DNA from: Pseudobutyrivibrio sp. MD2005
GTDB lineage: Bacteria > Bacillota > Clostridia > Lachnospirales > Lachnospiraceae
Direction: 5' to 3'
Length of the DNA stretch: 64,000 nucleotides
NCBI RefSeq assembly: GCF_000621865.1
Contig: NZ_JHXE01000016.1
Coordinates: 1 to 64,000 of the forward strand
Part shown: in pieces, positions 13,240 to 29,544 of the stretch
Numbering within the stretch: the stretch's first letter is position 1
Layout: every line of letters starts with the position of its first letter
Notes under the pieces: generated by a model
What the model saw: the letters and a program-made list of their open reading frames with translations, nothing else
Databases searched by the model: none
Told to the model about the DNA's origin: nothing
Translations under genes and position numbers: made by a program

Positions 13240-15142
13240 AGGACCACAACCAGGATCAGTACCAAAATTGACTAAAGAGCAAAAGGCCGCTAGACGTGGA
13301 GTTCTTGGCCGCCTTGTAAAATTCATAGGTAAGAGATATGCTATCCAGCTTGTAGTGGTAATAATTTGTATCTTTTTATCTGTAATCTGCAACGCTAAGG
13401 GAACAGCCTTTATGCAGGAATTAATTGATTCCTACATTCTTCCAATGATAAAAGAAGGAAGCACAGATTTTGCCCCACTTGCAGCAGCAATTAAGCATTT
13501 GATTGTATATTATGCAGTTGGTGTTGTTGCAACATTTTCATACAACTGGATAATGATTTTCGTTGCCCAGGGTTCATTAAAGGACCTTCGTAACGAAATG
13601 TTTGAAAAGATGGAAGACTTACCAATTAGATATTTTGATACACATGCTCACGGCGATATCATGTCAGTATACACAAATGATATTGATACACTTCGTCAGA
13701 TGATTTCGCAGAGCTTCCCACAGATGTTCAACAGTGCAATCACTATCGTGACAGTATTTGTGTACATGCTTATTCTATCACCATCACTTACAGGTGTTAC
13801 CATCGCAATGATTGCTGTTATCACAATCACAACCAAGTATTTGGCTGGCACATCAGGAAATTATTTCCGAAAGCAGCAGCAGGCCCTTGGTGCAGTAAAC
13901 GGTAACATCGAGGAAATAATGAATGGACAGAAGGTCGTAAAGGTATTCTGTCACGAAGAAGAAGTAATGGAGAAGTTCAACGAATTAAACGAGGGACTTT
14001 ATGAAAATGCTTATAAAGCCAGCAGACTTGCAAACAGCTTAGGCCCTGTAAACGCTCAGCTTGGTAATGTAAATTACGTGCTTTGTGCAGTTGTAGGTGG
14101 CACACTTGCAATCAATGGCTGGACAGGACTTACACTTGGAGCACTTGTTTCATTCCTGCAGTTCACACGATCATTTATCATGCCTATCATGCAGGTGTCA
14201 CAGCAGTTCCAGTCTATCGTTCTTGCTATGGCTGGTGCAGAGCGAGTATTTACACTTATTGATGAAGAGCCAGAGGTTGACGATGGCTACGTAATGCTTG
14301 TAAACGCCAAGGAAGAAAATGGCGAGATAGTAGAGTGCAAAGAGCGTACAGGCATGTGGGCTTGGAAGCATTTCCACAAGGCTGAGGGCACAACAACTTA
14401 CGTGAAGCTTACAGGCGACATTGTATTCGACGATGTAGATTTCGCATACAATCCAGAAAAGACTGTACTTCACAACATCAAGCTTTTCGCCACTCCAGGC
14501 CAGAAAATCGCCTTTGTAGGAGCAACTGGTGCCGGTAAAACAACCATCACCAACCTTATAAACCGCTTCTACGACATTGCAGATGGCAAGATTCGTTACG
14601 ACGGAATCAATATCAACAAGATAAAAAAGGCCGATTTACGTAAATCCCTTGGCATAGTGCTTCAGGACACACATCTTTTCACAGGCACTATCGCAGACAA
14701 CATTCGCTACGGAAAGCTTGACGCCACAGAGGAAGAAGTAATTGCAGCAGCTAAGCTTGCCAATGCAGACAGCTTTATCCGCCGATTACCACAGGGCTAC
14801 AACACCGTAATCAAAGGAGATGGCGGCAACCTTTCACAAGGTCAGAGACAGCTACTTGCCATTGCACGAGCAGCAATCGCCGACCCACCAGTCCTTATCC
14901 TTGATGAGGCCACATCATCAATCGATACACGTACAGAAAAAATCGTACAGGACGGTATGGACAAGCTGATGCATGGACGTACAACATTTGTAATTGCCCA
15001 CAGACTTTCAACTATCCGCAACTCCGACTGTATCATGGTTCTTGATCAGGGCCGCATAATTGAGCGCGGTAACCATGAGGAACTTATCCAAGAAGGCGGA
15101 AAATACTACCAGCTCTACACAGGAAAAATTCAAAACGCATAA
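13232..15142 (+). CDS. ABC exporter subunit with canonical ATPase site (heterodimer part B)
   Basis: A 636-residue half-transporter. The start at 13232 follows GGAGG at 13219-13223. Walker A is GATGAGKT, the signature is LSQGQ, and Walker B is LILDEATSSID with the catalytic Glu, complementing the defective site of the preceding subunit. A roughly 40-residue insertion between membrane and nucleotide-binding domains (YVMLVNAKEENGEIV...MWAWKHFHKAE) is seen in many YheH/BmrD-like subunits. The two subunits probably form a multidrug or peptide exporter controlled by the MarR protein. Confidence 0.94.
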   Translation: MPRGPQPGSVPKLTKEQKAARRGVLGRLVKFIGKRYAIQLVVVIICIFLSVICNAKGTAFMQELIDSYILPMIKEGSTDFAPLAAAIKHLIVYYAVGVVATFSYNWIMIFVAQGSLKDLRNEMFEKMEDLPIRYFDTHAHGDIMSVYTNDIDTLRQMISQSFPQMFNSAITIVTVFVYMLILSPSLTGVTIAMIAVITITTKYLAGTSGNYFRKQQQALGAVNGNIEEIMNGQKVVKVFCHEEEVMEKFNELNEGLYENAYKASRLANSLGPVNAQLGNVNYVLCAVVGGTLAINGWTGLTLGALVSFLQFTRSFIMPIMQVSQQFQSIVLAMAGAERVFTLIDEEPEVDDGYVMLVNAKEENGEIVECKERTGMWAWKHFHKAEGTTTYVKLTGDIVFDDVDFAYNPEKTVLHNIKLFATPGQKIAFVGATGAGKTTITNLINRFYDIADGKIRYDGININKIKKADLRKSLGIVLQDTHLFTGTIADNIRYGKLDATEEEVIAAAKLANADSFIRRLPQGYNTVIKGDGGNLSQGQRQLLAIARAAIADPPVLILDEATSSIDTRTEKIVQDGMDKLMHGRTTFVIAHRLSTIRNSDCIMVLDQGRIIERGNHEELIQEGGKYYQLYTGKIQNA

Positions 15143-15149
15143 TAACACA

Positions 15150-15186
15150 GGCGTGGTTGACAAAAACACCAACCACGCCCCTTTTA
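15150..15186 (+). terminator. Rho-independent terminator of the marR-ABC operon
   Basis: Stem GGCGTGGTTG (15150-15159) / CAACCACGCC (15170-15179) with a 10-nt loop, followed by CCTTTT. The CCACGCCC of its right arm also has an inverted copy at 15912-15919, beyond the giant palindrome. Confidence 0.9.
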
Positions 15187-15192
15187 TGCCTT

Positions 15193-15909
15193 TTAGGGCC
15201 CTACACCATTTCATTTAGCGACGCCCCGCCCCACTGGGCTGCCGCCCTCCCAAATCCAGGCATGCCCGCAAGGCCCCTCCCCTGCTGGCTCCAGCGCTGT
15301 ACACGTGGGGTGATTTTGCGAATATTGCTGCTTTTTCTTATGGACCAAATTTATGCATCGCACATGTGTCTTGTTGCGGAATGAACTGTTTGAAAAAATG
15401 TGTGGATGGGGCGAACACTTTTATACCTACAAATATATTTTAAAAATCTTTGCAGTAACTTGGGCTCATATTACATTTGCTAAGAAAAATAACGAAGCAG
15501 GTTTTGCATATATAGGTACCGTGCTCCATGCAACGTCCTGTTGCTTACGCACTTGCGCCGACGTCCGTGTCGGCGCATACCTATATATTGCAAAACCTGC
15601 TTCTATTTTTCTAAGCGCATTCCAAAATCGCCCAAGTTACCTGCAAAAATTCTTTAAAATATATTCATTAAATTCTTCTAGTGTTCACCCCTAGACATTC
15701 ATTTTTTCAAACTGTACAGGCCTGCAAAAGACACATGTAAATAAAAGATGCATAAATGGTCCATTAGAAAAACGCAATATTCATGCAATGCCCCACGTGT
15801 ACAGCGCTGGAGCCAGCAGGGGGAGGGGCCTTGCAGGCAATAAAAATAAGCGGGGCCTGCGGCAGCCTAGTGGGGCGGGGCTAGGCTGAGCTTTGGTGTA
15901 GGGGCCTAA
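15193..15909. repeat. Giant imperfect palindrome (about 717 bp), non-coding
   Basis: The left arm 15193-15518 and right arm 15578-15909 are diverged inverted copies of one sequence along their whole length. The best block is 15268-15310 against 15791-15834, 43-44 bases with one indel. The next is 15494-15518 against 15578-15603, about 25 of 26. Other shared blocks include CCCCGCCCCACT, GAATATTGC, ATGGACCA, TTTATGCATC, ACATGTGTCTT, GTTTGAAAAAATG and GTAACTTGGGC. Mismatches and small indels are scattered between blocks. Either strand, if transcribed, would fold into one rod about 330 bp long. The arms may extend to 15173 and 15919. Open frames inside change between arms and look spurious. Function and origin are unknown: it could be a structured RNA, a MITE-like element or an inverted duplication. 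Confidence 0.9.
15519..15577. other. Forked apex of the giant palindrome: two hairpins
   Basis: The 59-base centre is not part of the arm homology. It holds two hairpins. The first pairs GTGC (15521-15524) with GCAC (15549-15552), and inside it GCAAC with GTTGC around the loop GTCCT. The second pairs GCGCCGAC (15555-15562) with GTCGGCGC (15569-15576) around GTCCGT. Both loops carry ACGTCC. This gives a three-way junction at the tip of the rod. Confidence 0.75.
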
Positions 15910-15940
15910 GAGGGCGTGGAGAGGTTTTTGAGGAAGCGGG

Positions 15941-16986: not shown

Positions 16987-18837
16987 ATGGTCATTCAACA
17001 TAATTTAAATGCTAGCAATGCTAGCCGCATGTACAATATCACAAATTCATCCATTGGAAAATCAAGCGAAAAGCTTAGTAGCGGTTATAGAATCAATCGT
17101 GCAGCAGATGATGCAGCAGGGTTAACAATATCAGAAAAAATGCGTAAGCAAATCCGCGGCTTGGATAAGGCCTCAACAAATGCTAGCGATGGAATCTCTA
17201 TGGTTCAGATCGCTGATGGCGCCTTGGAAGAAGTGCATAGCATGCTTCAAAGAAGTAATGAGCTTGCAGTACAGGCTTCTAATGGTACATTGTCAGATAG
17301 CGATAGAATAAACATCAACGAAGAAATTCTAAAGATAAAAGACGAAATTAATTCGATTACCAAAAAGACTAAATTTAATGAGCTTAATGTGTTTACTGAG
17401 GATGGATATATGCCAAATCTAAAGAGCATTTCTGCAACAGCAGGCTCAGAAGGCGCGGTAAATACCCTGGCTGGCAAGATAAAGGATGAATTCTTTCCAA
17501 ATGCCGTTTCGCAGATTTTGGAATCATTCTCACCTCTTGGAAATACTATTAATACACTTGCGGCCCCAGATAAATCGCCTTATTATACAACACTTTCAGT
17601 GGATTATATTGATGGCGTGAGCAATAAACTGGCATATATGCAGGCATCATTTAGCATGGGTTCCCCAGTGACTTTTGCTGCAAGCTCATTGCTTATGAAG
17701 GTCGATAAGGATGATTTCCCATCAGTAAATATGTCTGAACAGCAGCAGACTTTACTTGAATCTACAATAGCACATGAGACTATGCACGGTGTAATGGATG
17801 TGGCATTCCCTGAAAGAATGTCTCAGTCGAATCCATCAACCAGCTTCCCACTTTGGTTTGTGGAAGGCACAGCACAGCTTGCAGGAGGCGGATTTACAAC
17901 AGGTTGGAATAATAGCTTATCGAACACTGTAAAGAATTTGAGCAACGCAAATGACACTAGCTCAGATAGCGCAATATCAAATTATCTGAAGTCAAAGACA
18001 GTAGAAACAAATGAGTATGGCCATGGATATTTGGCAGCAGCCTATGCTTCATATCTAGCCGCAGACGGAAATGATGTTTCAGCAAGCTCAATAGCAAGCG
18101 GCGCAAGCAAAATATTCCAGTCTTTCTTAAATGATAAAACTAGTAGCTTTAATAGCGTAATGAATAGTGCTGTAGGTGTTTCTGCAGATAGTTTAGTTGA
18201 TCAAATCAATAATGGTAGCATTACAACTCTTAAACCTGGCAAGGCTAGTCCTACTGAATTTGTAAGAAGGCTTGCATACAATAGTTTGGGCGGGGCAGGT
18301 TCTGTAATTACAGGCGATTTGAAGACAGGCGGATCATCAATCTTAGGAGAGACTGCAGTAAATGATGATCAGCCTATTATGATTAACAACGTAGAGACAT
18401 CATACAATGAAGTGGCTGTAGAAGGCGATTCAGCAGCAAATGTAGTCCTTCAAATCGGCTCTGATAGACAAGATGAGAATAAGCTTGAAATTAAGCTATT
18501 CAACATGAATTGCGATGCTCTTTCAGTAGGTAATACAGATGTATTAACAGAAAAAAGAGCAACATCAGCTATCGATGAGTTTGGCAAGGCAATCAAGCTC
18601 GTCAGCGGTGTAAGAAGCTATTTTGGAGCAATGCAAAATCGCCTAGAGCACACCATCAAAAACCTCGACAATGTAGTTGAGAACACAACATCAGCAGAAT
18701 CTCGAATTCGTGACACAGACATGGCAGACGAAATGGTATCTTACTCAAAGGATAGAATACTTGCACAGGCAGGTGAGGCAATGCTTAGCCAGGCAAACGC
18801 AAACGCCCAAAGCGTAATGGCTTTATTACAGTTCTAA
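16987..18837 (+). CDS. Flagellin with internal zinc metallopeptidase domain (flagellinolysin type)
   Basis: A 616-residue flagellin. The N-terminal D0/D1 region (about 1-140, with SSGYRINRAADDAAGL) and the C-terminal D1/D0 region (about 525-616, ending NAQSVMALLQF) are ordinary. The variable centre is replaced by a peptidase-like domain with HETMH at residues 263-267 and Glu293 in FPLWFVEGTAQ, the HExxH...E pattern of gluzincins. Flagellins with such an M9-like insert are known as flagellinolysins and make the filament proteolytic; the substrate here is unknown. The zinc ligands would be His263, His267 and Glu293, with Glu264 as general base. A sigma-28-like promoter precedes it and a terminator follows. 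Confidence 0.93.
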   Translation: MVIQHNLNASNASRMYNITNSSIGKSSEKLSSGYRINRAADDAAGLTISEKMRKQIRGLDKASTNASDGISMVQIADGALEEVHSMLQRSNELAVQASNGTLSDSDRININEEILKIKDEINSITKKTKFNELNVFTEDGYMPNLKSISATAGSEGAVNTLAGKIKDEFFPNAVSQILESFSPLGNTINTLAAPDKSPYYTTLSVDYIDGVSNKLAYMQASFSMGSPVTFAASSLLMKVDKDDFPSVNMSEQQQTLLESTIAHETMHGVMDVAFPERMSQSNPSTSFPLWFVEGTAQLAGGGFTTGWNNSLSNTVKNLSNANDTSSDSAISNYLKSKTVETNEYGHGYLAAAYASYLAADGNDVSASSIASGASKIFQSFLNDKTSSFNSVMNSAVGVSADSLVDQINNGSITTLKPGKASPTEFVRRLAYNSLGGAGSVITGDLKTGGSSILGETAVNDDQPIMINNVETSYNEVAVEGDSAANVVLQIGSDRQDENKLEIKLFNMNCDALSVGNTDVLTEKRATSAIDEFGKAIKLVSGVRSYFGAMQNRLEHTIKNLDNVVENTTSAESRIRDTDMADEMVSYSKDRILAQAGEAMLSQANANAQSVMALLQF

Positions 18838-18957: not shown

Positions 18958-19071
18958 GGAAATTGTAGTGGTATAGCTATGTTTATTTTTCGTTGGAAAA
19001 AACAAGAAAATGCCCTACGAAATCAAAAGAAAGTAGTTAGAAATGGGGATCTAACAAAGGGGAAATGGCCT

Positions 19072-22000
19072 ATGAACAACCGTGTGAATTTCTTTAAAAG
19101 ATTAACAGCATTCTTACTTGCTATGTTGCTTGTAACGTCAATGATGGGAAATGATTTCTCATCACTGGCGGACGAAGACGTAGAATCAAGTACGGAGGTA
19201 AGCGAAGAGTCAGCTGCATCAGATGATGGTGGAGCTGCTGAATCTGTGTCTTTTGAATCAGAACCAGCAGCAGACCCAGAGCCGGCAGCTGAGCCAGAGC
19301 CTGTAGTTGATGCAGAGCCAGCGGAAGAACCAGGCGAAGAGACAGGTGTGCCACAGGACCCAGCAGATCCAGAAATCCCTACAGATGTTGTAGATTCCCC
19401 AGCTGATACAACAGAAGCTACAGAAGATACAGTAGAAGGCCAGACCTCAGTAGACCCAGAAAATATAGATAATCCAGAAGTAGTAAATCCAGATGAGATA
19501 GAGCAGCCAGAATTAACAGAGGAAGAGAAGAAGGCATTAGAAGAAAAGGAATTACTTGAAAAGCTAGAAGAAGAGGAAAAAGAGTGCGACCATAGATGGG
19601 TATATGTTTCAAATAATGATGGAACACATACAGTTAAATGCGAAGAGTGTGGCGAGGAAGACCGCACAGAAGATTGTGAATTTGAAGAAGGTGTCTGCAT
19701 TCATTGCGGATATGAATTGTTAGAAGAAAAAGAATGTGAGCATGAGTATGAGTACGTTTCAAATGACGATGGCACTCATACAAAGCGATGCATTAAATGC
19801 GGCGAAGAAGTCATTGAGGACTGTGAATTTGATGAGGACTGGGTATGTAAGTACTGCGGTTACGAAGATATGACCCTTACATATCAGAGTGTTTCAAAGA
19901 CAATCCATGGTGTAAAGGTTACTGTTTCAGGTGAAATGCCAAGAAACTCAAGAGTAACTATCTATACAAAATCTTTAAATAAGATTAATGATATCGTAAA
20001 TGAACAGTTGGAAGAAGGTACATTTACAGCCTTTGAAGCCTTTGATATCAATATTTATGACCGTCATGGAGACAAGTATCAACCAGCGGAAGATGATAAC
20101 ACAGTAGAAGTAACTTTTGAAGGTGTAGAAGAGCTTCCAGATTACGAAGATGGTGAAATCGCAGCCTTCAGAATCGAAGATGACTATGAAACTGTAACAG
20201 AGATTGACTGTGATGTTTCAGGAGAGAATGTATCCTTTGATGCAGAACATTTTTCTACATACGCAACAGGTACTATTTCAGGAGGAAATTATGTATCACT
20301 ATCTAGTACACAGAAGTTTGCATATATAGGTCAGGGATCCGCAAATTATACTGTAATAACAGGTACAAAATTCTACACTAGATACACAAATACTGGTAGC
20401 ACAAAGTTTACAGTAGAATTGCGTAAGAATCTCACATCAAACACAGACCCATTAAGTGGCGAGCTATTAGCAACTCAGACATATACTATGCCAAATGTTG
20501 CAGCAGGAGATTATGAGGTTGATGTAGTATTTGATAGCATTAGTGGAGTCAATGATAAAGGACTACCAGATGGAACCATTATCAATGACAATGCCTATAT
20601 TACAAAGGGTAGCTATTATTCTGTAGTTGTAAGTATGGATAATGCTTGCCAGATTGGATATGGCAATGGCAATATCGAGACCTATCTTACAAATGCAACA
20701 AATGTATGGTCAAGTGGTTCATACAATGGAATCTTCGAGGAGGTTTCAGAAACATATACGGACATAACTGACACATACTACATTACAAAAATTCAGGCAG
20801 CAGATGCAGCAGCTGATGGAAATGGAGCATATCACTATGCAAAAGGCGATACAGATAAATTTACAGCAACATTATCAAATCCATCAGTTGAAAGAACTAT
20901 TACATGGACATCAGGAAATGAAAACGTTGTAAAGATTGATGCGGATGGTAACATGACGGCAGTGGGCCCTGGTACCACAACCATTACAGGAGATTATAAC
21001 AATAAACCTGTAACTGTTACTGTGCAGGTACTTAATTTCTATATTGGTGGTACGGAAACAATAGGGGATACTGCGTCACTTAATCTTACATATAATGGTG
21101 AAGAGCAGACACCGGCAGTTATCGCATATTCAAATGCTTCAAGCTCCACAGTAGATGTAAACACAAGCTATTCAGATAACCAAAATGTAGGAAAAGCAAA
21201 GGTAACAATTAAGTACACAGTTGATTCAGTATCCACATACACATATGAAAGATACTTCAATATTGAAGCCATTGATATAACTGCAACTGGCAGTGATGGT
21301 AATACTGCATTTCAGAATGCAGATTACACTATGTCAGGCAATGAAGTTACAGCAGTAACAAATGTTAATAGCAATGGAGCAATCAAAGTAGGTGATAAGC
21401 TAGTAACGCCGGTATTCTCTACTAGTGATACCACTGATTTTACAGTAGATGTAGTTGAGCCTATCATAGCTACCACAGGAATTTCATATCTTATGACAAT
21501 TACTGGTAAAGGAAACTTTACAGGTAGTTTCAGCATTACAAAGGCTATAACTGACACGGATGTTTCAAAGCTATTTAAAGTGTCACTAAGTGATGATTCA
21601 GCTTTATTAACGGCTACATATAAGGCAGAAGCATATACTCTCACTCCTACAACAGAAGGTTGGAGCGAAGTAACCTTCTATGATATGGATGACAATGTAG
21701 TCAATGAAATAATCACAGAAGAGACTGCTGAAGTAAAGATTTATAACAAAAATGACTTAACTACAGAAGATGCAGTTAACGCAGGCGTAAAGACCATCGT
21801 ATTTACCATGAAGAACACCAGTGGCTACACTGGTAGCTTGTCGTGCGATTTCACAATCGATAGAGCATCTTTAAAGAATACAACAATCACATGGACAGGC
21901 GGCAAGGGTGATTATAAAGATCAGTTCTATAGAGATGAAGAGATTGTAGAAGGCGAAGATTACACACTTAAATTTAATAGTACAGGTGTTGTTATACCAA

Positions 22001-25000
22001 CAACTGATTATAAGGCCAGCTTCCCAGATGTAGATGTTGACCTTGGTTCCTATGCAAGAATGATTCTTTCAAATGAGGGAACAAACTTTGAAACAGATAT
22101 AACAAAAACAGGACAGTATCAGATAATCGCAAAATATGATACTGATTTGGAAATCAGAATTACTGGAAGTTCAGGTAAAGGAACAGCATCCAATAATTAT
22201 GCAACAGGATATAAGAAGACTTTTGATAATACAGAGGGAACTCCAAGTATTTATGCATATCTTCCAGGTATAGGTCCACTTACAAAGGATGTAGATGTAA
22301 CAATTGAAGTATTTGATAATGAAGCATGTACACAGGCTGTTTCTAAGAATGTAGGTACAAAATATATCAAGATAGCTCCAGTGTCTACAGGAAGTTATAA
22401 GGATTTTGCTACAGTAGTAGGTACCTATACAGTAGTGGCATGCCCAATTAATAGCTCAAAAGTAAAGGTAACTAAGCCTTCATCAACTACAAACTATACA
22501 TTTACAGGCGATGATATCACTCTTAAGTGCGCAACAGGTGATAGCGATGCAAGCACATCTGATATTGTTATTAAGTATGGAACAACAGGATATCTTGTAA
22601 AAGGCACAGATTATGATATCTCTTATACAAATAACTACAATGTAGGAAAAGCATCTTACATTATCGAAGGTAAGGGTAATTATAGCGGTACTCTTAGTGG
22701 TAGCGCATATAGCTTCAATATCACACAGGAAGAACTATCGATTACTGATACACAGAAGGCATTTGCCAAGGTATTAGCTAATACATACGACCCAATTTAT
22801 GATGGAAATGATAAGACTCCAGATGTTGAAGTAAAAATCAACAATACTAATATCATAAAACAAATTGATCCTAAGAATAACGGTAAAGCAAACTATAGCC
22901 TTTCATATGCAAAGAATAAGAATCAGGGAACAGCTACAGTAACAGTAACTGGTCAGAACAACTTAAAGGGTGAAGTAGTGCTTACTTTCCCTATTACAAG
23001 TAACACTGAAAGATACACAAATATCATAATAGCTGAGACATATACTGCAACACCTGTACCTGGAGGTGAAAGTGAATCAGGTGGAGTATATACAAGAAGT
23101 TATACAAGCGATTATATTGCAACATTCACAGGCGGTGAAGCTAGACCATCTATAAAAGTATATTCAAAGAATAATGCTGAGCTTAAATACGGTGTAGATT
23201 ATGGTTTAGACTACTACAACAATGTCAATGCGGCTACTTATACAGTAGGCAATACTACAACCTCGCCTTACGTAAGAGTTACAGGTATAGGCAACTATGC
23301 TGGAAGTGATGCGATTATATATTTCTCAATTCAGAAATGTACTATCACAGAGGATATGGTCACTGTTCCTGAGTCTTATCCTTGGATAGATGCTAGTACT
23401 AAGGTAAAGGCAGAGCCAACCGTAACCTACAATGGCAAGACATTAGCAGTAGACACAAACTATACAGTGGACTGCTATGATACTTATGAATCTACAACAG
23501 ATAATACAGAGCTTACAACTACAGCAGGCACAAAGTATGTGGTTGTTAGAGGTATTGGCGATTATGACGGTGAAGTAGTAAAGACTTACAAGGTTGGAAC
23601 AGATATTTCAGAAGCACTTGTAAGAATTAAAAGCGCATATTACTCAACATCAAACGAGGTATTTATACCATCGGCTGGCACTGATATGGCAGTTGCAAAC
23701 ACATCTTTGACAACACCGTTTGATGTGACATGGAGATATAATAAGGCTCCTATCATTGAACTATATGATACAAATATGCAACCAATCAGTACTACTTACA
23801 TTGCTTCAACAGAGATATCTAGTACATTGGGGGGACAAAATCCAGAGACCTTCCCAGCGCGTGTCACAAGTGCAATAGATGATATTAACTACAATATCGT
23901 AACTTACAAAGTGACAGCAAGTGGAGAAGGCGGCTTCTACGGCTCAACAACAGTTAAGTATAGGATACTTCCTCAGGATATAAAGACAGTAAAGCAGGAG
24001 GATGTTCCTGCTGATAGAATGTACTTAACTAAGACTGAGTTAAGCCAGTCATATACAGGTGAAGAAATAAAGATTGAACCTACTTATATCTTTACATATG
24101 GTAGTGCAACAAGACAGACAACAGTAATAGAAGGCTATTCATGCAAGCTTAAAGGCGGCACAGATTTCACACCATATCCTGTAAATATAGGAGTAGATGC
24201 AAGCACTACACTTAAAGAGCAGACTATCTCAGGTATTGGAAACTATACAGGTACTGATACGCTCCATTTTGAAATTAAAGAGGGCTATATCGATGTATAT
24301 ATTGATTCAATAAGTGATGACACAAAGCTTGCTACAACAGATGCAGAGAATAATCAGTATGAAATCACAGGAGATAACTTCCCTAAGTATACTTATACTG
24401 GGCAGGAAGTTAAGCCTAATATCATATTTACAAATGCCAGTGGCGGAGTACTTGCTTTAGGCACAGATTATACTATTACATACAAAAACAACATCGAGCC
24501 TACAGATGGAACAAGCATGGCATCTGCAACCATAAATATCGAAAATACTAACTTTGCAACAAAAAGTATTGTAGTGAACTATAAGATCCTTCCTAACACA
24601 CTAGAAGGATTTACAGCAGTGCTTGGAAATGAAAACTGTATAGATTATGCAGCAGTAGCGTTGACACCTGCAGAAATCAAGACGCAGGTTGAGACAGGCG
24701 ATCTTCCACTTGTAGTATCTTCTGGAACAAAGACACTTACCAGAGGAGAGGATTATGAAATCGTAGTAACAAACGCAAGTACAGAAGCTGCAGTATTAGC
24801 GGAGATAAGAAAGCAGTCAGAGTACGCTAGCGAAACATCAACAAGTGGTGCTAACAGTGCGCCTTCTTACAAGACCGCCAACTGGATTTATCTGAAAGGA
24901 TTAAACACATATAGTGGCTATCTGAAGGCCAACTTTAGTATTCAGCTTGATTTAGGCTCTGCTTATGCGGAAGTTACTATGCCACAAAGAACATACAGAT

Positions 25001-28000
25001 TAAATGGTGATGGAACACTTGCAGAGTCACTTAATCCAGTGATTAAGTATGTCCCTGTAGACCCAACATCAGGTTATACAGAAACACTTAGCAACACAAC
25101 TACACTTCCTGATAGCACAACCGTATATAACTACACTATTAAAAGAGATAGAAATGGCCTTCCAGGACCAGATCCAACCTTATCTCTAGTGGGACAGTAT
25201 GCATGTAAGGGAACAGCAGAAAATCTTAAGTACATCGATACAACAGGTACTGCAGTTAACATTTGCTTCCTTGCAGATTTGCAATACTATGGGGCAGACG
25301 ATATCAGTATAAAGAACGGTACAGTCTATGCTTATACTGGAGACGTAATACAGGTAGAAGTAGTAGGTGATGTTATAAGTGGCGCGACCCAGGCACCGGG
25401 AGTTGAGTTTGAAGGTGATTATGTATTAGAGTACTACAAAGCAACAGATACTGCTAATAAGACAGATGCAGTGGAGGTAGGAAAGTGGTATGTAGTATTA
25501 CGTGCAAGTGATAATAGTGACTACTTTATACCTAATTCAAAGACTAATACGGAAGCAATAAGCTTCACTATTAAGTATGATCTAAACAAATGTACATTGA
25601 GCTTTATAAACGATGCAGGTCTTCCAATTACCTCTGCATCATACAATCCAGAGAAGCCATTTGTATTTGCGGATCATGCAGTTATTAAATTTGAAAAAGC
25701 AGATGGTACATCAGTTACAGTATATTCTCCAGAAGCGGAGGGTGTAGGTTATGTTGGATTCTCGCCAGAATCACTTTCAAAGATAACAACAGATAGGGAA
25801 ATTACAGCTGTGCCATCGCCATCACCAAACGATTACTGCATGAATAAGTGTACAGCAAACTTTTCTATAACAGGATTGGATATAAACACATGTACAGTCA
25901 CATTAGGCGGAACATCCTTTGATTATACAGGTTCTGATATTAAGCCTACAGTTACAGTAGAACATCCAATCAATGGAACTCTTAGAAATAATATTGATTA
26001 CACTGTTACATATCCTAAGGATGCAAAAAATGTAGGAACAAAGACTGTGCTAATAGCAGGTATTGGAGCATATTCAGGAGTAGTATCTAAGGAATATACC
26101 ATTAACCCTGTAACCATTACACCGGGAATGGTTTCACTGGCAGCACCTGTATATTATGCTGGACCGGGGGTTGTTGTTAAGCCGAGTCTAGTAATTAAAA
26201 ATGGCTCAGATATACTTGATGAAGGAACAGAGTACATCGTTACATATCCAGACAGTAATAAGACAGCACGTGAAGATGCTTATGTAACAATCAGTCAGGG
26301 TACAAGTGAGAACTATCTTGTTCCTAGTCCATTCAATTATGTATTTACTATCAACAAACTGGATTTGAGGCTGGCAGACAACGTAACAATCAGCCCTGAC
26401 AGTGCAGAATTTAATGGTGGCACAGTTAATCCTTATGATGTTGTTACAGTGACACTAGGCGATGTCACTCTTGTATCAGAACAGGATGATGCGACAAACT
26501 GTGATTACACAATTGAGGTATTTAATGCAGCAAATACAGCTGAGACTGAATTAAAAAGCCAAGGCTCTTATATCCTTAGAATTCGCGGAGCACATAACTG
26601 TGATGAAGAGACTTACATTGAGAAGGACTTTAAAATCACATCACGCTCATTAGAGGATAATTACCATTATTACTATGAGAATGGTGATGACCCAGGATTT
26701 AAAGGCTTATGGAAGTATGATTCTACAAATGTTCGGTACGAGACCAGAGGTGTTAAGAAAGAAGCTAATGGCTCATACTCTAATGAATGTTTGGTAATTT
26801 ATGTATACGATATTGTTTCCCTTGATGACGGCGATACACCAACAGTTGTTATCTACGACAAGGGTAGAAAAGATGACACAGACTATCGATTAAAGGATGA
26901 AGAGTTTACAGTACAGCCATTTAGAAATACAGAAGCTGCTTCTGCCGAGTGGAGTAAGACAAACACAGTAGATGAAAAGGGTGGAAGACATGCTACAGCA
27001 GCTGCCACATCACCATATATTGAAATCACAGGAAATGGTGATTACGCAGGAACAATCAGAATCCCATTCAATATTGGTGTAAACCTTAATACCATTACAG
27101 ATTTAAGCGTTGTATACACAATGTCAGGAGCAGATAAATCTACATATACTTATGTTCCTGATAACGCAGATACAGTGGCATGGAGCTTCAATGAGTACAA
27201 TGGAGTGGCACAAAAACCTTCTACAATTACTGTAAAGCAGGGCAATAAAACACTTCCTAAGAAAGCATACACCATCAGCTACACAGATGGAGATGGTGAT
27301 GAGGATTCTTCTATTGATGCAGGCTACAAGTATGTAGTTATTACAGGTAGCGGCGACTATTGCGGAACTATTAAGCAGAAGTATGCAATTAATAGAAAAG
27401 CAATAACAGCTATAGGTGGACCATTTGATACTGATGTAATGGAGACAGATGGCGGAGAGCTTACATTCAACTTTACAGGTGTAGCGCAGCCATTTACATC
27501 AGCAACAGCAAAGACACACCTTGTAGATACAGGCTTATTAACAGAAGAGGAAGCTGCAAATTATGTAGGATACTATTACAGCATTTACAACGGTATTCCA
27601 GTGGAACCTACAATTTCTGTATGGGATAACACTTTAAAGACACCAAAGAAGATAGATAGCAATGAGCTTAAATTAGATTACCCAAATAATGAAACAGTAT
27701 CTAGCTTTGAAAATGGTGAGCGTAACCTATATAGCTGGGTAACAGTTGAGTTCCAGGCAACTGGTGCTGATGCAGGCAACTTGAACAAAGCAGGCGGCAA
27801 CTACTATGTACCGGATGCAGCTATTAGCTATCAGATGAATTACATAATTATAGCTCATGATATCGCCAATGACTTTGACGTAAGATTCATTAATGGCACA
27901 GATGGAAATAATTATAATTATGATTCTGGTAAGCCAATCACACCTGAGATTGAGGTAACAAATGAATCTAGCAAACCACTTACCGAAGGTGTTCACTATG

Positions 28001-29544
28001 AAGTAAGCTATGGCACTAAGAAAATTAAGACTGTAATAAGTGGCGAGGAAACAGAAGTTACAATACCTGGTAACATCACTCCTGGTGTATCAACCATAAC
28101 TGTTACAGGTATCGGAAACTATAGTGGTGAGAAGACATTAGATTTCTATATTTGGGGAAATCTTTCACAGACAGACACCTATTATATAGATGATAATGGC
28201 AATTTTGTAGCAGGTAATGGAGACATTCCTGTACAGCAGTACACAGGCACTTATATCACCACTGGAGACCCTAGAGTATACTTGGCTCTTCCATCACAGA
28301 ACAGCTTAAATTACGATGCTATTCTTACCTATGATACAGAATACTTTGTGCAGAACAAGAAATCTGATAACAGTTATGTTGTAGATGCATGGGTAGAATA
28401 TGCAGGTAGAGCTAGTGCATACTGGTCAGGCACAAAGACAGTTGCATACGATATTGAGTACGATTTAAATAAGGTAAAGGCTACTAATTATGAGGATTGG
28501 TATTATTGGACAGGAAAGCCTATAGAGCCAGCCTTTGGCGTAAGCATTCCTACAGCAACTGTTACTGGTGTAACTTACAAGCGAAACAGTGCATCAACAA
28601 CAGACACAACAAGCATCGGTACCATTGAAGCATCTGTAGCATTTAAGATTGGAAATGAATCTGGAGTAACAAAGGCTACATACGAAATCAAGCCTAGACC
28701 TATTTCTAAGTGTACTGTTGTATTTAACAAGTCCAACCAAAGATATACAGGAAAGGCCTTGAAGCCAGCCTCTACAGTATTTATCCAGTCTAGCAACCTT
28801 AAGACAGGCGAGTCACAGACTACAAATCTTACTGCAGGTACTGATTACAAAGTAGATTATGGCAACTACATTTACAACAATGGCACGGGCTACATCACAT
28901 TAACAGGAAATACAGAAAACATAGTAGGCACAACAACAGAGAAATACTCAATAGTCCTCCATCCAGTTGCCAACCTTAGAGTAACAGAAAACACAGGCGA
29001 TTCCCTCACAGCTCAGTGGGTAAGCGACATATTCTCTAATGGAACACAGCTTCTGCTTCAGGAATATGATGCAACAAGCAAGACCTATAAGACAGTACAG
29101 CTTGCAAATGTAGGTGGATTAACAGGCAAGAACACATTCACAGGCTTAAAGGGAAGCACAAAATATCAGATAGTAGCAAGAGCATTTGCAAATTCTGTAG
29201 ATGGAACACCTGCAGATGGTAAGATCTACAGTGAACAAGTATCTACAGAAGCAATCACAGATATTGCTACAAAGGATATTACAGTTACAAGAACATCTGC
29301 TACAAAGGCAAAGATTACATGGACAGAAACAAAAGACATCGTAAGCTACTACATCTACAGGGCTGAAGATGAAACTAGCGAAGGCAAGGTTATCGCAATC
29401 GTTCCAGCATCAACAGGCTCATACACAAATTCTAAGCTTACAAGCGGCGTAACCTACTACTACCACATTGATGGTTACACCTACATAGATGGTGTTTGGA
29501 CCAGAGTAAATTCATCTGTCCACAAGCCAGCCGTAGCACCATAA
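19072..29544 (+). CDS. Giant secreted repeat protein with zinc-ribbon-like pair, Ig-like modules and Fn3 C terminus
   Basis: A 3490-residue secreted protein. The start at 19072 follows AAAGGGG; the earlier ATG at 18979 has no ribosome site. Residues 1-34 are a signal peptide; 35-170 are acidic and rich in Pro, Glu and Ala. Residues 172-265 hold two copies of a Cys-rich unit (CxH ... DGTHT ... CxxCG ... CxxCGY) that looks metal-binding. A Big_2-like Ig domain covers about 568-653. About 20 diverged modules follow, most ending in a GIGNYSG-type turn and a short strand ending in Ile, like MBG-type Ig domains. Residues 3297-3490 look like two Fn3 domains. There is no LPxTG-type signal at the end. 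It probably acts as an adhesin or matrix protein; the ligand is unknown. Confidence 0.88.
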   Translation: MNNRVNFFKRLTAFLLAMLLVTSMMGNDFSSLADEDVESSTEVSEESAASDDGGAAESVSFESEPAADPEPAAEPEPVVDAEPAEEPGEETGVPQDPADPEIPTDVVDSPADTTEATEDTVEGQTSVDPENIDNPEVVNPDEIEQPELTEEEKKALEEKELLEKLEEEEKECDHRWVYVSNNDGTHTVKCEECGEEDRTEDCEFEEGVCIHCGYELLEEKECEHEYEYVSNDDGTHTKRCIKCGEEVIEDCEFDEDWVCKYCGYEDMTLTYQSVSKTIHGVKVTVSGEMPRNSRVTIYTKSLNKINDIVNEQLEEGTFTAFEAFDINIYDRHGDKYQPAEDDNTVEVTFEGVEELPDYEDGEIAAFRIEDDYETVTEIDCDVSGENVSFDAEHFSTYATGTISGGNYVSLSSTQKFAYIGQGSANYTVITGTKFYTRYTNTGSTKFTVELRKNLTSNTDPLSGELLATQTYTMPNVAAGDYEVDVVFDSISGVNDKGLPDGTIINDNAYITKGSYYSVVVSMDNACQIGYGNGNIETYLTNATNVWSSGSYNGIFEEVSETYTDITDTYYITKIQAADAAADGNGAYHYAKGDTDKFTATLSNPSVERTITWTSGNENVVKIDADGNMTAVGPGTTTITGDYNNKPVTVTVQVLNFYIGGTETIGDTASLNLTYNGEEQTPAVIAYSNASSSTVDVNTSYSDNQNVGKAKVTIKYTVDSVSTYTYERYFNIEAIDITATGSDGNTAFQNADYTMSGNEVTAVTNVNSNGAIKVGDKLVTPVFSTSDTTDFTVDVVEPIIATTGISYLMTITGKGNFTGSFSITKAITDTDVSKLFKVSLSDDSALLTATYKAEAYTLTPTTEGWSEVTFYDMDDNVVNEIITEETAEVKIYNKNDLTTEDAVNAGVKTIVFTMKNTSGYTGSLSCDFTIDRASLKNTTITWTGGKGDYKDQFYRDEEIVEGEDYTLKFNSTGVVIPTTDYKASFPDVDVDLGSYARMILSNEGTNFETDITKTGQYQIIAKYDTDLEIRITGSSGKGTASNNYATGYKKTFDNTEGTPSIYAYLPGIGPLTKDVDVTIEVFDNEACTQAVSKNVGTKYIKIAPVSTGSYKDFATVVGTYTVVACPINSSKVKVTKPSSTTNYTFTGDDITLKCATGDSDASTSDIVIKYGTTGYLVKGTDYDISYTNNYNVGKASYIIEGKGNYSGTLSGSAYSFNITQEELSITDTQKAFAKVLANTYDPIYDGNDKTPDVEVKINNTNIIKQIDPKNNGKANYSLSYAKNKNQGTATVTVTGQNNLKGEVVLTFPITSNTERYTNIIIAETYTATPVPGGESESGGVYTRSYTSDYIATFTGGEARPSIKVYSKNNAELKYGVDYGLDYYNNVNAATYTVGNTTTSPYVRVTGIGNYAGSDAIIYFSIQKCTITEDMVTVPESYPWIDASTKVKAEPTVTYNGKTLAVDTNYTVDCYDTYESTTDNTELTTTAGTKYVVVRGIGDYDGEVVKTYKVGTDISEALVRIKSAYYSTSNEVFIPSAGTDMAVANTSLTTPFDVTWRYNKAPIIELYDTNMQPISTTYIASTEISSTLGGQNPETFPARVTSAIDDINYNIVTYKVTASGEGGFYGSTTVKYRILPQDIKTVKQEDVPADRMYLTKTELSQSYTGEEIKIEPTYIFTYGSATRQTTVIEGYSCKLKGGTDFTPYPVNIGVDASTTLKEQTISGIGNYTGTDTLHFEIKEGYIDVYIDSISDDTKLATTDAENNQYEITGDNFPKYTYTGQEVKPNIIFTNASGGVLALGTDYTITYKNNIEPTDGTSMASATINIENTNFATKSIVVNYKILPNTLEGFTAVLGNENCIDYAAVALTPAEIKTQVETGDLPLVVSSGTKTLTRGEDYEIVVTNASTEAAVLAEIRKQSEYASETSTSGANSAPSYKTANWIYLKGLNTYSGYLKANFSIQLDLGSAYAEVTMPQRTYRLNGDGTLAESLNPVIKYVPVDPTSGYTETLSNTTTLPDSTTVYNYTIKRDRNGLPGPDPTLSLVGQYACKGTAENLKYIDTTGTAVNICFLADLQYYGADDISIKNGTVYAYTGDVIQVEVVGDVISGATQAPGVEFEGDYVLEYYKATDTANKTDAVEVGKWYVVLRASDNSDYFIPNSKTNTEAISFTIKYDLNKCTLSFINDAGLPITSASYNPEKPFVFADHAVIKFEKADGTSVTVYSPEAEGVGYVGFSPESLSKITTDREITAVPSPSPNDYCMNKCTANFSITGLDINTCTVTLGGTSFDYTGSDIKPTVTVEHPINGTLRNNIDYTVTYPKDAKNVGTKTVLIAGIGAYSGVVSKEYTINPVTITPGMVSLAAPVYYAGPGVVVKPSLVIKNGSDILDEGTEYIVTYPDSNKTAREDAYVTISQGTSENYLVPSPFNYVFTINKLDLRLADNVTISPDSAEFNGGTVNPYDVVTVTLGDVTLVSEQDDATNCDYTIEVFNAANTAETELKSQGSYILRIRGAHNCDEETYIEKDFKITSRSLEDNYHYYYENGDDPGFKGLWKYDSTNVRYETRGVKKEANGSYSNECLVIYVYDIVSLDDGDTPTVVIYDKGRKDDTDYRLKDEEFTVQPFRNTEAASAEWSKTNTVDEKGGRHATAAATSPYIEITGNGDYAGTIRIPFNIGVNLNTITDLSVVYTMSGADKSTYTYVPDNADTVAWSFNEYNGVAQKPSTITVKQGNKTLPKKAYTISYTDGDGDEDSSIDAGYKYVVITGSGDYCGTIKQKYAINRKAITAIGGPFDTDVMETDGGELTFNFTGVAQPFTSATAKTHLVDTGLLTEEEAANYVGYYYSIYNGIPVEPTISVWDNTLKTPKKIDSNELKLDYPNNETVSSFENGERNLYSWVTVEFQATGADAGNLNKAGGNYYVPDAAISYQMNYIIIAHDIANDFDVRFINGTDGNNYNYDSGKPITPEIEVTNESSKPLTEGVHYEVSYGTKKIKTVISGEETEVTIPGNITPGVSTITVTGIGNYSGEKTLDFYIWGNLSQTDTYYIDDNGNFVAGNGDIPVQQYTGTYITTGDPRVYLALPSQNSLNYDAILTYDTEYFVQNKKSDNSYVVDAWVEYAGRASAYWSGTKTVAYDIEYDLNKVKATNYEDWYYWTGKPIEPAFGVSIPTATVTGVTYKRNSASTTDTTSIGTIEASVAFKIGNESGVTKATYEIKPRPISKCTVVFNKSNQRYTGKALKPASTVFIQSSNLKTGESQTTNLTAGTDYKVDYGNYIYNNGTGYITLTGNTENIVGTTTEKYSIVLHPVANLRVTENTGDSLTAQWVSDIFSNGTQLLLQEYDATSKTYKTVQLANVGGLTGKNTFTGLKGSTKYQIVARAFANSVDGTPADGKIYSEQVSTEAITDIATKDITVTRTSATKAKITWTETKDIVSYYIYRAEDETSEGKVIAIVPASTGSYTNSKLTSGVTYYYHIDGYTYIDGVWTRVNSSVHKPAVAP

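Follow-up and report, generated by a model that had tools for sequence, protein, structure and literature searches.

A palindrome between an ABC exporter and a Fic-domain gene

The window, a 64,000-nt stretch of the Pseudobutyrivibrio sp. MD2005 genome, carries an imperfect palindrome flanked on one side by two ABC exporter genes and on the other by a 65-amino-acid open reading frame (ORF) without a Pfam match, which precedes a Fic-domain gene (Table 1). An earlier note, made from the letters alone, had described a 717-bp imperfect palindrome between an exporter operon and a toxin-antitoxin pair. The palindrome proved real, each end reaching 4 nt further than the note had it, and so did the exporter, while the other neighbour is the small ORF with the Fic-domain gene. 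The statement that no gene lies inside is compatible with the ORF list, yet ORFs of 75 and 113 amino acids in that list overlap the palindrome. Exporter homologues in our species collection were at most 71% identical and were left unused for reconstructing the locus.

An inverted-repeat search returned the blocks 15274-15310/15791-15827 and 15263-15282/15820-15839 (95% each), 15223-15245/15859-15881 (96%), 15189-15208/15894-15913 (90%) and 15487-15508/15589-15610 (86%). Two blocks singled out in the note were exact as described: a long one pairing 43 nt with 44 nt with one indel, and one next to the apex with 25 matching bases and one indel. In a gapped alignment of the two arms, 279 of 319 columns were Watson-Crick pairs, and the predicted folding energy was -427.9 kcal/mol, whereas 20 shuffled sequences averaged -218.6. 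The 59-nt centre is more than a plain loop: it holds two further hairpins, both inside an Rfam match.

Table 1. Features of the palindrome and its edge in the window
Feature	Position	Strand	Basis
Hairpin 3' of exporter gene	15142-15187		scan match to a terminator, minus strand
Whole imperfect palindrome, probably an old copy of a mobile hairpin	15189-15913		inverted blocks, fold z = -31.8, genomic relatives
Outer arm, exporter side, copy-specific	15189-15308		within-copy score 65, best cross-copy score 25
Core of about 470-480 nt common to copies	15309-15786	-	pairwise extents of copies; edges approximate
TwoAYGGAY RNA motif (RF01731)	15469-15626	-	cmscan 82.7 bits, threshold 43, model 1-168 of 168
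Apical hairpin 2, loop CAGGAC with GGA	15530-15544	-	position and predicted pairing
Apical hairpin 1, loop ACGGAC with GGA	15554-15577	-	position and predicted pairing
Outer arm, Fic side, inverted partner of exporter-side arm	15787-15913		within-copy score 65, best cross-copy score 25

Part of the hairpin 3' of the exporter gene may have been copied inverted onto the other flank, near 15895-15937, where the matching blocks are weak and short. Read inward, the outer arms of the genus copies, including those of the window, have a C fraction of 0.355 and a G fraction of 0.209. Such C-rich, G-poor arms resemble Rho loading sites, and the palindrome might end transcription arriving from both sides.

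A flagellin gene (16987-18837, plus strand) lies downstream of the Fic-domain gene. It has a large central insert with the string HETMH, and its Pfam matches are the flagellin N and C domains only; we take it to resemble the metalloprotease flagellins (flagellinolysins). It is followed by an ORF of 3521 amino acids (18979-29544, plus strand), by eye a repetitive surface protein.

The apex is a TwoAYGGAY RNA motif

The earlier note knew of no named family with this layout. That was wrong: the apex belongs to the TwoAYGGAY RNA family (Rfam RF01731), described in 2010 (PMC2864571). The curated criterion of RF01731 is the model score, and the window copy reaches the Rfam gathering score across the full model. 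Its first loop follows the AYGGAY rule, and its second keeps GGA but departs from the rule; the two GGAs are 28 nt apart. Matches of the palindrome to COG3943 and to three miRNA families were below threshold and were rejected.

The first-loop GGA was present in all of 100 genus copies, while the second loop read CGA instead of GGA in 53 of them. By predicted pairing, at least one GGA hairpin with four or more pairs was found in 99 of the 100 genus copies and in 26 of 26 other copies, two loci being omitted as too short. The stems under the GGA loops differ between lineages while the GGA stays in the loop. Only the apex looks like selected RNA.

Co-occurrence with csrA and possible CsrA binding

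Binding of CsrA was predicted for TwoAYGGAY in 2014, in the part of that source available to us (PMC4333381). GGA in hairpin loops, as found here, is what characterises CsrA-binding small RNAs. In a sample of the bacterial family, the motif was found in 51 of 319 genomes at E values up to 0.001 (49 exceeding the threshold), and csrA was present in 50 of these 51 as against 119 of 268 motif-less genomes (Fisher p 8e-15). In a phylum-wide sample, the motif was found in 51 of 398 genomes (34 exceeding the threshold), with csrA in 49 of the 51 as against 236 of 347 without the motif (p 3e-6). Both p-values overstate the association, as the genomes are related. Co-occurrence was counted by comparing two listings, three genomes are common to both samples, and the match counts per genome in both searches are to be read as "at least". 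The motif genomes without a csrA match were G195, G526, G579 (75% complete) and G015, a genus member (81% complete). (G numbers denote genomes, G000 being the present one, and L numbers denote copies.)

The association could instead reflect mere shared ancestry of motile lineages, with an RNA that does not bind CsrA, and we give this reading a substantial though minority weight. Within the genus, csrA is present in 28 of 29 genomes with or without the motif, and the second GGA has been lost in about half of the copies, as this reading would allow. Against it, the association holds both across the family and across the phylum, and GGA keeps its place in the loop on stems that vary from lineage to lineage. 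On balance, we lean towards CsrA binding by the TwoAYGGAY tip. That the copies act physiologically as a CsrA sponge is a good deal more doubtful: the frequent loss of the second-loop GGA, the presence of csrA without the motif in G001 and G012, and the motif in G015 with no csrA match all speak against a simple sponge.

Many copies of a common core

RF01731 matched above threshold at 49 places in this genome (3.09 Mb), and TwoAYGGAY was present in 27 of 29 genomes of the genus. When the window element was used as a blastn query, many of the 49 copies matched across several hundred bases. The common core extends about 158 nt ahead of the RF01731 match and 153 nt beyond it, and it is by its core that the window copy is placed in the family. 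A subset of the copies agrees past the core, to about 610 nt, and terminates in GTTACCATTCACAGT and its complement. When whole copies were aligned with MAFFT (one copy of this genome, at a contig end, omitted), the result could be read in the core only.

A chance or private inverted duplication, without homologues or covariation, is rejected by the 49 copies, and both homologues and covariation were found. An origin from a plasmid or phage was likewise rejected, as distant blastn with the core as query matched nothing in the plasmid or phage collections.

For comparison, 60 copies from 13 other genomes were taken from the match listings. They stood mostly near the top by score and are a non-random sample. 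In several cases the RF01731 match is no more than a few hundred bases from the start of its contig (for example, G342:C2, G336:C52 and G018:C82). Palindromes may break assemblies, and copy counts from drafts may be too low.

Ends and target duplications

The best-kept copies end in inverted repeats of GTTACYATTC, in this genome and in four related ones. A 14-nt end sequence occurred at 36 places of this genome with at most one mismatch, and its backward-read control at none. Both ends were recognisable in 22 of 48 copies (the 49 minus one at a contig end, which was omitted from the end and arm-alignment analyses alike). Among these 22, a target duplication was exact over 8 bp in four and matched at 7 of 8 bp in one more, as compared with 2 of 462 cross pairs at 7 of 8 or better.

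A stricter test, with GTTACYATTC at both ends and at most one mismatch in all, was passed by 19 of 104 copies (including 9 from other genera) and by none of the 104 in the backward control; the 19 come from five genomes. Direct repeats of at least 7 of 8 bp flanked 8 of the 19, two of which (L189 and L210) share flanks and represent one orthologous site. One syntenic site lacks the element in three relatives.

The family is very probably a non-autonomous transposon, or MITE, because of these inverted-repeat ends, some of them with 8-bp target duplications. It is short, present in 49 copies, and without coding capacity seen by eye at the extra end-bounded sites; terminal inverted repeats and target duplications are features of the family, the window copy excepted, whose terminal repeats are unrecognisable. 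We count against this assignment that good target duplications were found in only 5 of the 22 end-bearing copies. A search for an autonomous partner at the extra terminal-repeat sites in this genome gave none: by eye these sites held half elements and ordinary-looking genes and no transposase ORF. Among the possibilities raised by the earlier note, a palindromic mobile element is the one borne out, by dispersed copies, terminal inverted repeats, target duplications and the empty site in three relatives.

In G342, which belongs to another genus, the arms of copies L110-L115 are shorter and their ends differ, being near CAGGGAAATC; L110 seems to be flanked by a 9-bp direct repeat. The same RNA may be moved by different transposases in that genus.

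Outer arms resemble each other within a copy

Across 22 copies from this genome, identity of the outer arms was 78.4% within a copy as against 58.5% between copies (left arms), and none of 10000 re-pairings reached the observed within-copy similarity. The core stem showed the opposite relation, with 78.8% identity within and 88.7% between copies. The suspicion that some blocks are under selection is thus borne out in that the core is conserved between copies and the outer arms are not.

The same was seen by alignment score. In this genome, the within-copy score was at least 25 in 43 of 47 copies (one contig-end copy and one with N letters omitted), with a cross-copy mean of 14.7 and a 95th percentile of 24. 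In G009, where copies share 86-98% over about 400-550 nt among the best matches listed, the outer arms of 10 copies (L100 omitted) scored 59-102 within a copy and at most 24 across copies. Elsewhere, scores of at least 25 were obtained in 44 of 57 copies (L100 and further short-flank copies omitted), that is, in 44 of 48 genus copies and in none of nine from three other genera, in which the outer-arm effect was absent in the range tested. In the 57-copy set, 17 of 266 cross pairs also scored at least 25. Several of these pairs come from G007, where the copies have arms in common, as if they stemmed from a burst.

By short-word matching (contig-end, N-letter and short-flank copies omitted), homology between the arms falls with distance from the core. 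In the nine copies of this genome with the best ends it stops at the terminal repeat, and in other copies it runs out to about 160 nt past the core edge.

Probably rewritten gene ends and a derived patch

In G009, copy L106 has a kinase gene of the pfkB family on one side and, convergent with it, a small gene on the other; the small gene belongs to no known family and is lipoprotein-like by eye. The same genes stand tail to tail without the element in G007, G011 and G022, their stops overlapping by 11 nt or lying 4 nt apart. The two coding tails in G009 share an exact 19-nt inverted block, as compared with a longest block of 5 or 6 nt in the three relatives, and the kinase tail reads KNILHQ as against EKLINQ in two of them. 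In our reading of these sequences, the block would be native to the small gene (EHSTS; EYSTS and EHSTA in relatives) and would have been copied into the kinase, and a block at the stop codon would have gone the opposite way, from kinase to small gene.

Copy L101 of G009 lies between uvrA and a sucrose-phosphorylase-like gene. (PfkB was named by Pfam; UvrA and sucrose phosphorylase were named by partial NCBIfam matches of fragments.) The shared block here is 20 nt, mostly past the stops, as compared with 5-6 nt in G011 and G022, which carry different, unalignable DNA at the site. The phosphorylase tail SYEIITD now reads SYTVTVD, opposite SYTG of uvrA.

The orthologous insertion L210 (in G006) and L189 (in G010), 97.7% identical, showed the direction of one change. 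In L210, a clustered change makes the right arm an exact complement of the left arm. The patch is the derived state, because the other 9 of the 10 copies having this segment retain the other form. A multi-nucleotide complementing patch of known direction, the mark of quasipalindrome correction, is thus present in L210 relative to L189. This patch and the tail blocks fit template-switch (quasipalindrome) correction; similar marks would be left by gene conversion.

Intramolecular gene conversion by recombination, in place of replication template switching, might accordingly be what keeps the arms alike; its traces would be similar, and it reportedly operates between the arms of sex-chromosome palindromes (PMC3723533, PMC8981503). 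The tracts here are short (blocks of some 6-56 nt), a better though not decisive match to template switching, and we regard gene conversion as unlikely. Still less credible is an inverted target duplication that made the flanks at insertion: it would suit the copy-specific outer arms of G009, but the nine best-ended copies of this genome have no arm homology past their terminal repeats, shared blocks elsewhere are patchy with unrelated stretches between, and the L210 patch is younger than its insertion.

Pairing probably kept at the level of DNA

Long arms could also be due to a long rod-like regulatory RNA, proposed in the earlier note, in which the whole palindrome would be transcribed and selection on RNA pairing would keep the arms complementary. 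The fold is very stable, the arms covary within copies, and a looser first count of arm mismatches gave 277 G-U and 224 A-C. In a strict count, however, there was no G-U excess, with 117 G-U and 135 A-C in the outer arms and 450 and 429 in the core stem. Moreover, arms in G009 are unrelated between copies and enter coding tails, and no shared or conserved promoter was seen across the copies. Nor was a strand preference relative to neighbouring genes seen in 98 copies with a crude ORF call (25 in tandem with, 33 in tandem against, 26 convergent, 11 divergent and 3 unclear). As the cause of the long arms, a rod-like RNA is very improbable.

Because the arms are complementary within copies with no excess of G-U over A-C, we infer that their pairing is maintained in the DNA and not through selection for an RNA. 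The covariation sought as support for an RNA was indeed found, but most of it resembles DNA copying. Here strong covariation goes with a missing G-U signature, a warning that arm covariation, the usual proof of RNA structure, can stem from DNA copying.

Proposed mechanism

The window element is probably best explained as an old copy of a hairpin-forming MITE with copying between its arms and a selected core and apex, the tip of which would bind CsrA. First, on the evidence of the family and not of the window copy, the element would spread as a single piece, roughly 0.6-0.75 kb long, bounded by GTTACYATTC ends and making 8-bp target duplications, a transposase presumably being supplied in trans. 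Second, the inserted arms would mispair or extrude at replication, and the polymerase would switch template between them. Switching would keep the arms complementary and place inverted copies of flanking DNA on the opposite side; the palindrome would grow outward as a result, in places into gene 3' ends. We hold such template-switch copying to be quite likely. Third, selection would keep the conserved mismatches of the core and the apex. Were the minus strand transcribed, one or two GGA-loop hairpins at the TwoAYGGAY tip would be available to CsrA, and the copies could form a CsrA sponge or be CsrA-responsive tails that act locally.

A wider speculation, which we offer tentatively, is that a hairpin transposon seeds self-extending palindromes wherever it inserts, slowly making the two flanks inverted copies and rewriting the C-termini of its neighbours, while CsrA-binding tips spread across the genome and their copy number tunes free CsrA.

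Relation to known systems

The RNA family, its proposed CsrA link, small-RNA-yielding MITEs and template switching are already known. The window copy is like TwoAYGGAY in its full-model covariance match and the GGA loops at its tip, and differs in its second loop, CAGGAC. In the part available of its description (PMC2864571), TwoAYGGAY is a free-standing RNA motif, whereas here it forms the tip of a mobile palindrome of 0.6-0.75 kb in up to 49 copies. Prokaryotic MITEs, some of which yield small RNAs, such as QMITE1 of Coxiella (PMC10969869, as far as that source was available), are likewise short, non-coding and dispersed, with terminal inverted repeats and target duplications. The present element, in contrast, is palindromic throughout, carries a conserved RNA motif, has arms that co-evolve into the flanks, and has no known partner transposase.

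Template switching makes inverted-repeat arms complementary in multi-nucleotide patches, also in coding DNA, according to the accessible parts of two reports (PMC8794818, PMC8604942), with PMC7202029 on the same subject. The patches here are alike in both respects; those reports concern short inverted repeats and RNA stems, whereas here a mobile 470-nt palindrome appears to seed the process outward at many loci. CsrB and RsmY, which sequester CsrA (PMC4333381, PMC4383904, in the parts available), also have GGA within hairpin loops; they carry many sites in one RNA, as against one or two predicted sites per copy and many genomic copies here.

In a literature search with most subscription papers outside its scope, no account was found of a mobile palindrome tipped by TwoAYGGAY or of such palindromes extending into gene ends, and nothing was stated on TwoAYGGAY function beyond the 2014 CsrA proposal. 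The present results give this family a genomic context and, in CsrA, a strong phylogenetic lead. With dozens of loci in each genome, the family is also a natural system for measuring how palindromes grow outward and how this affects protein ends.

One copy of this genome, L063 (G000:C1:229350-230900), has its TwoAYGGAY motif (230041-230200, plus strand) after csrA itself (229517-229738) on the same strand, and its outer arm reaches the csrA 3' end. Autoregulation or chance are both possible for this arrangement.
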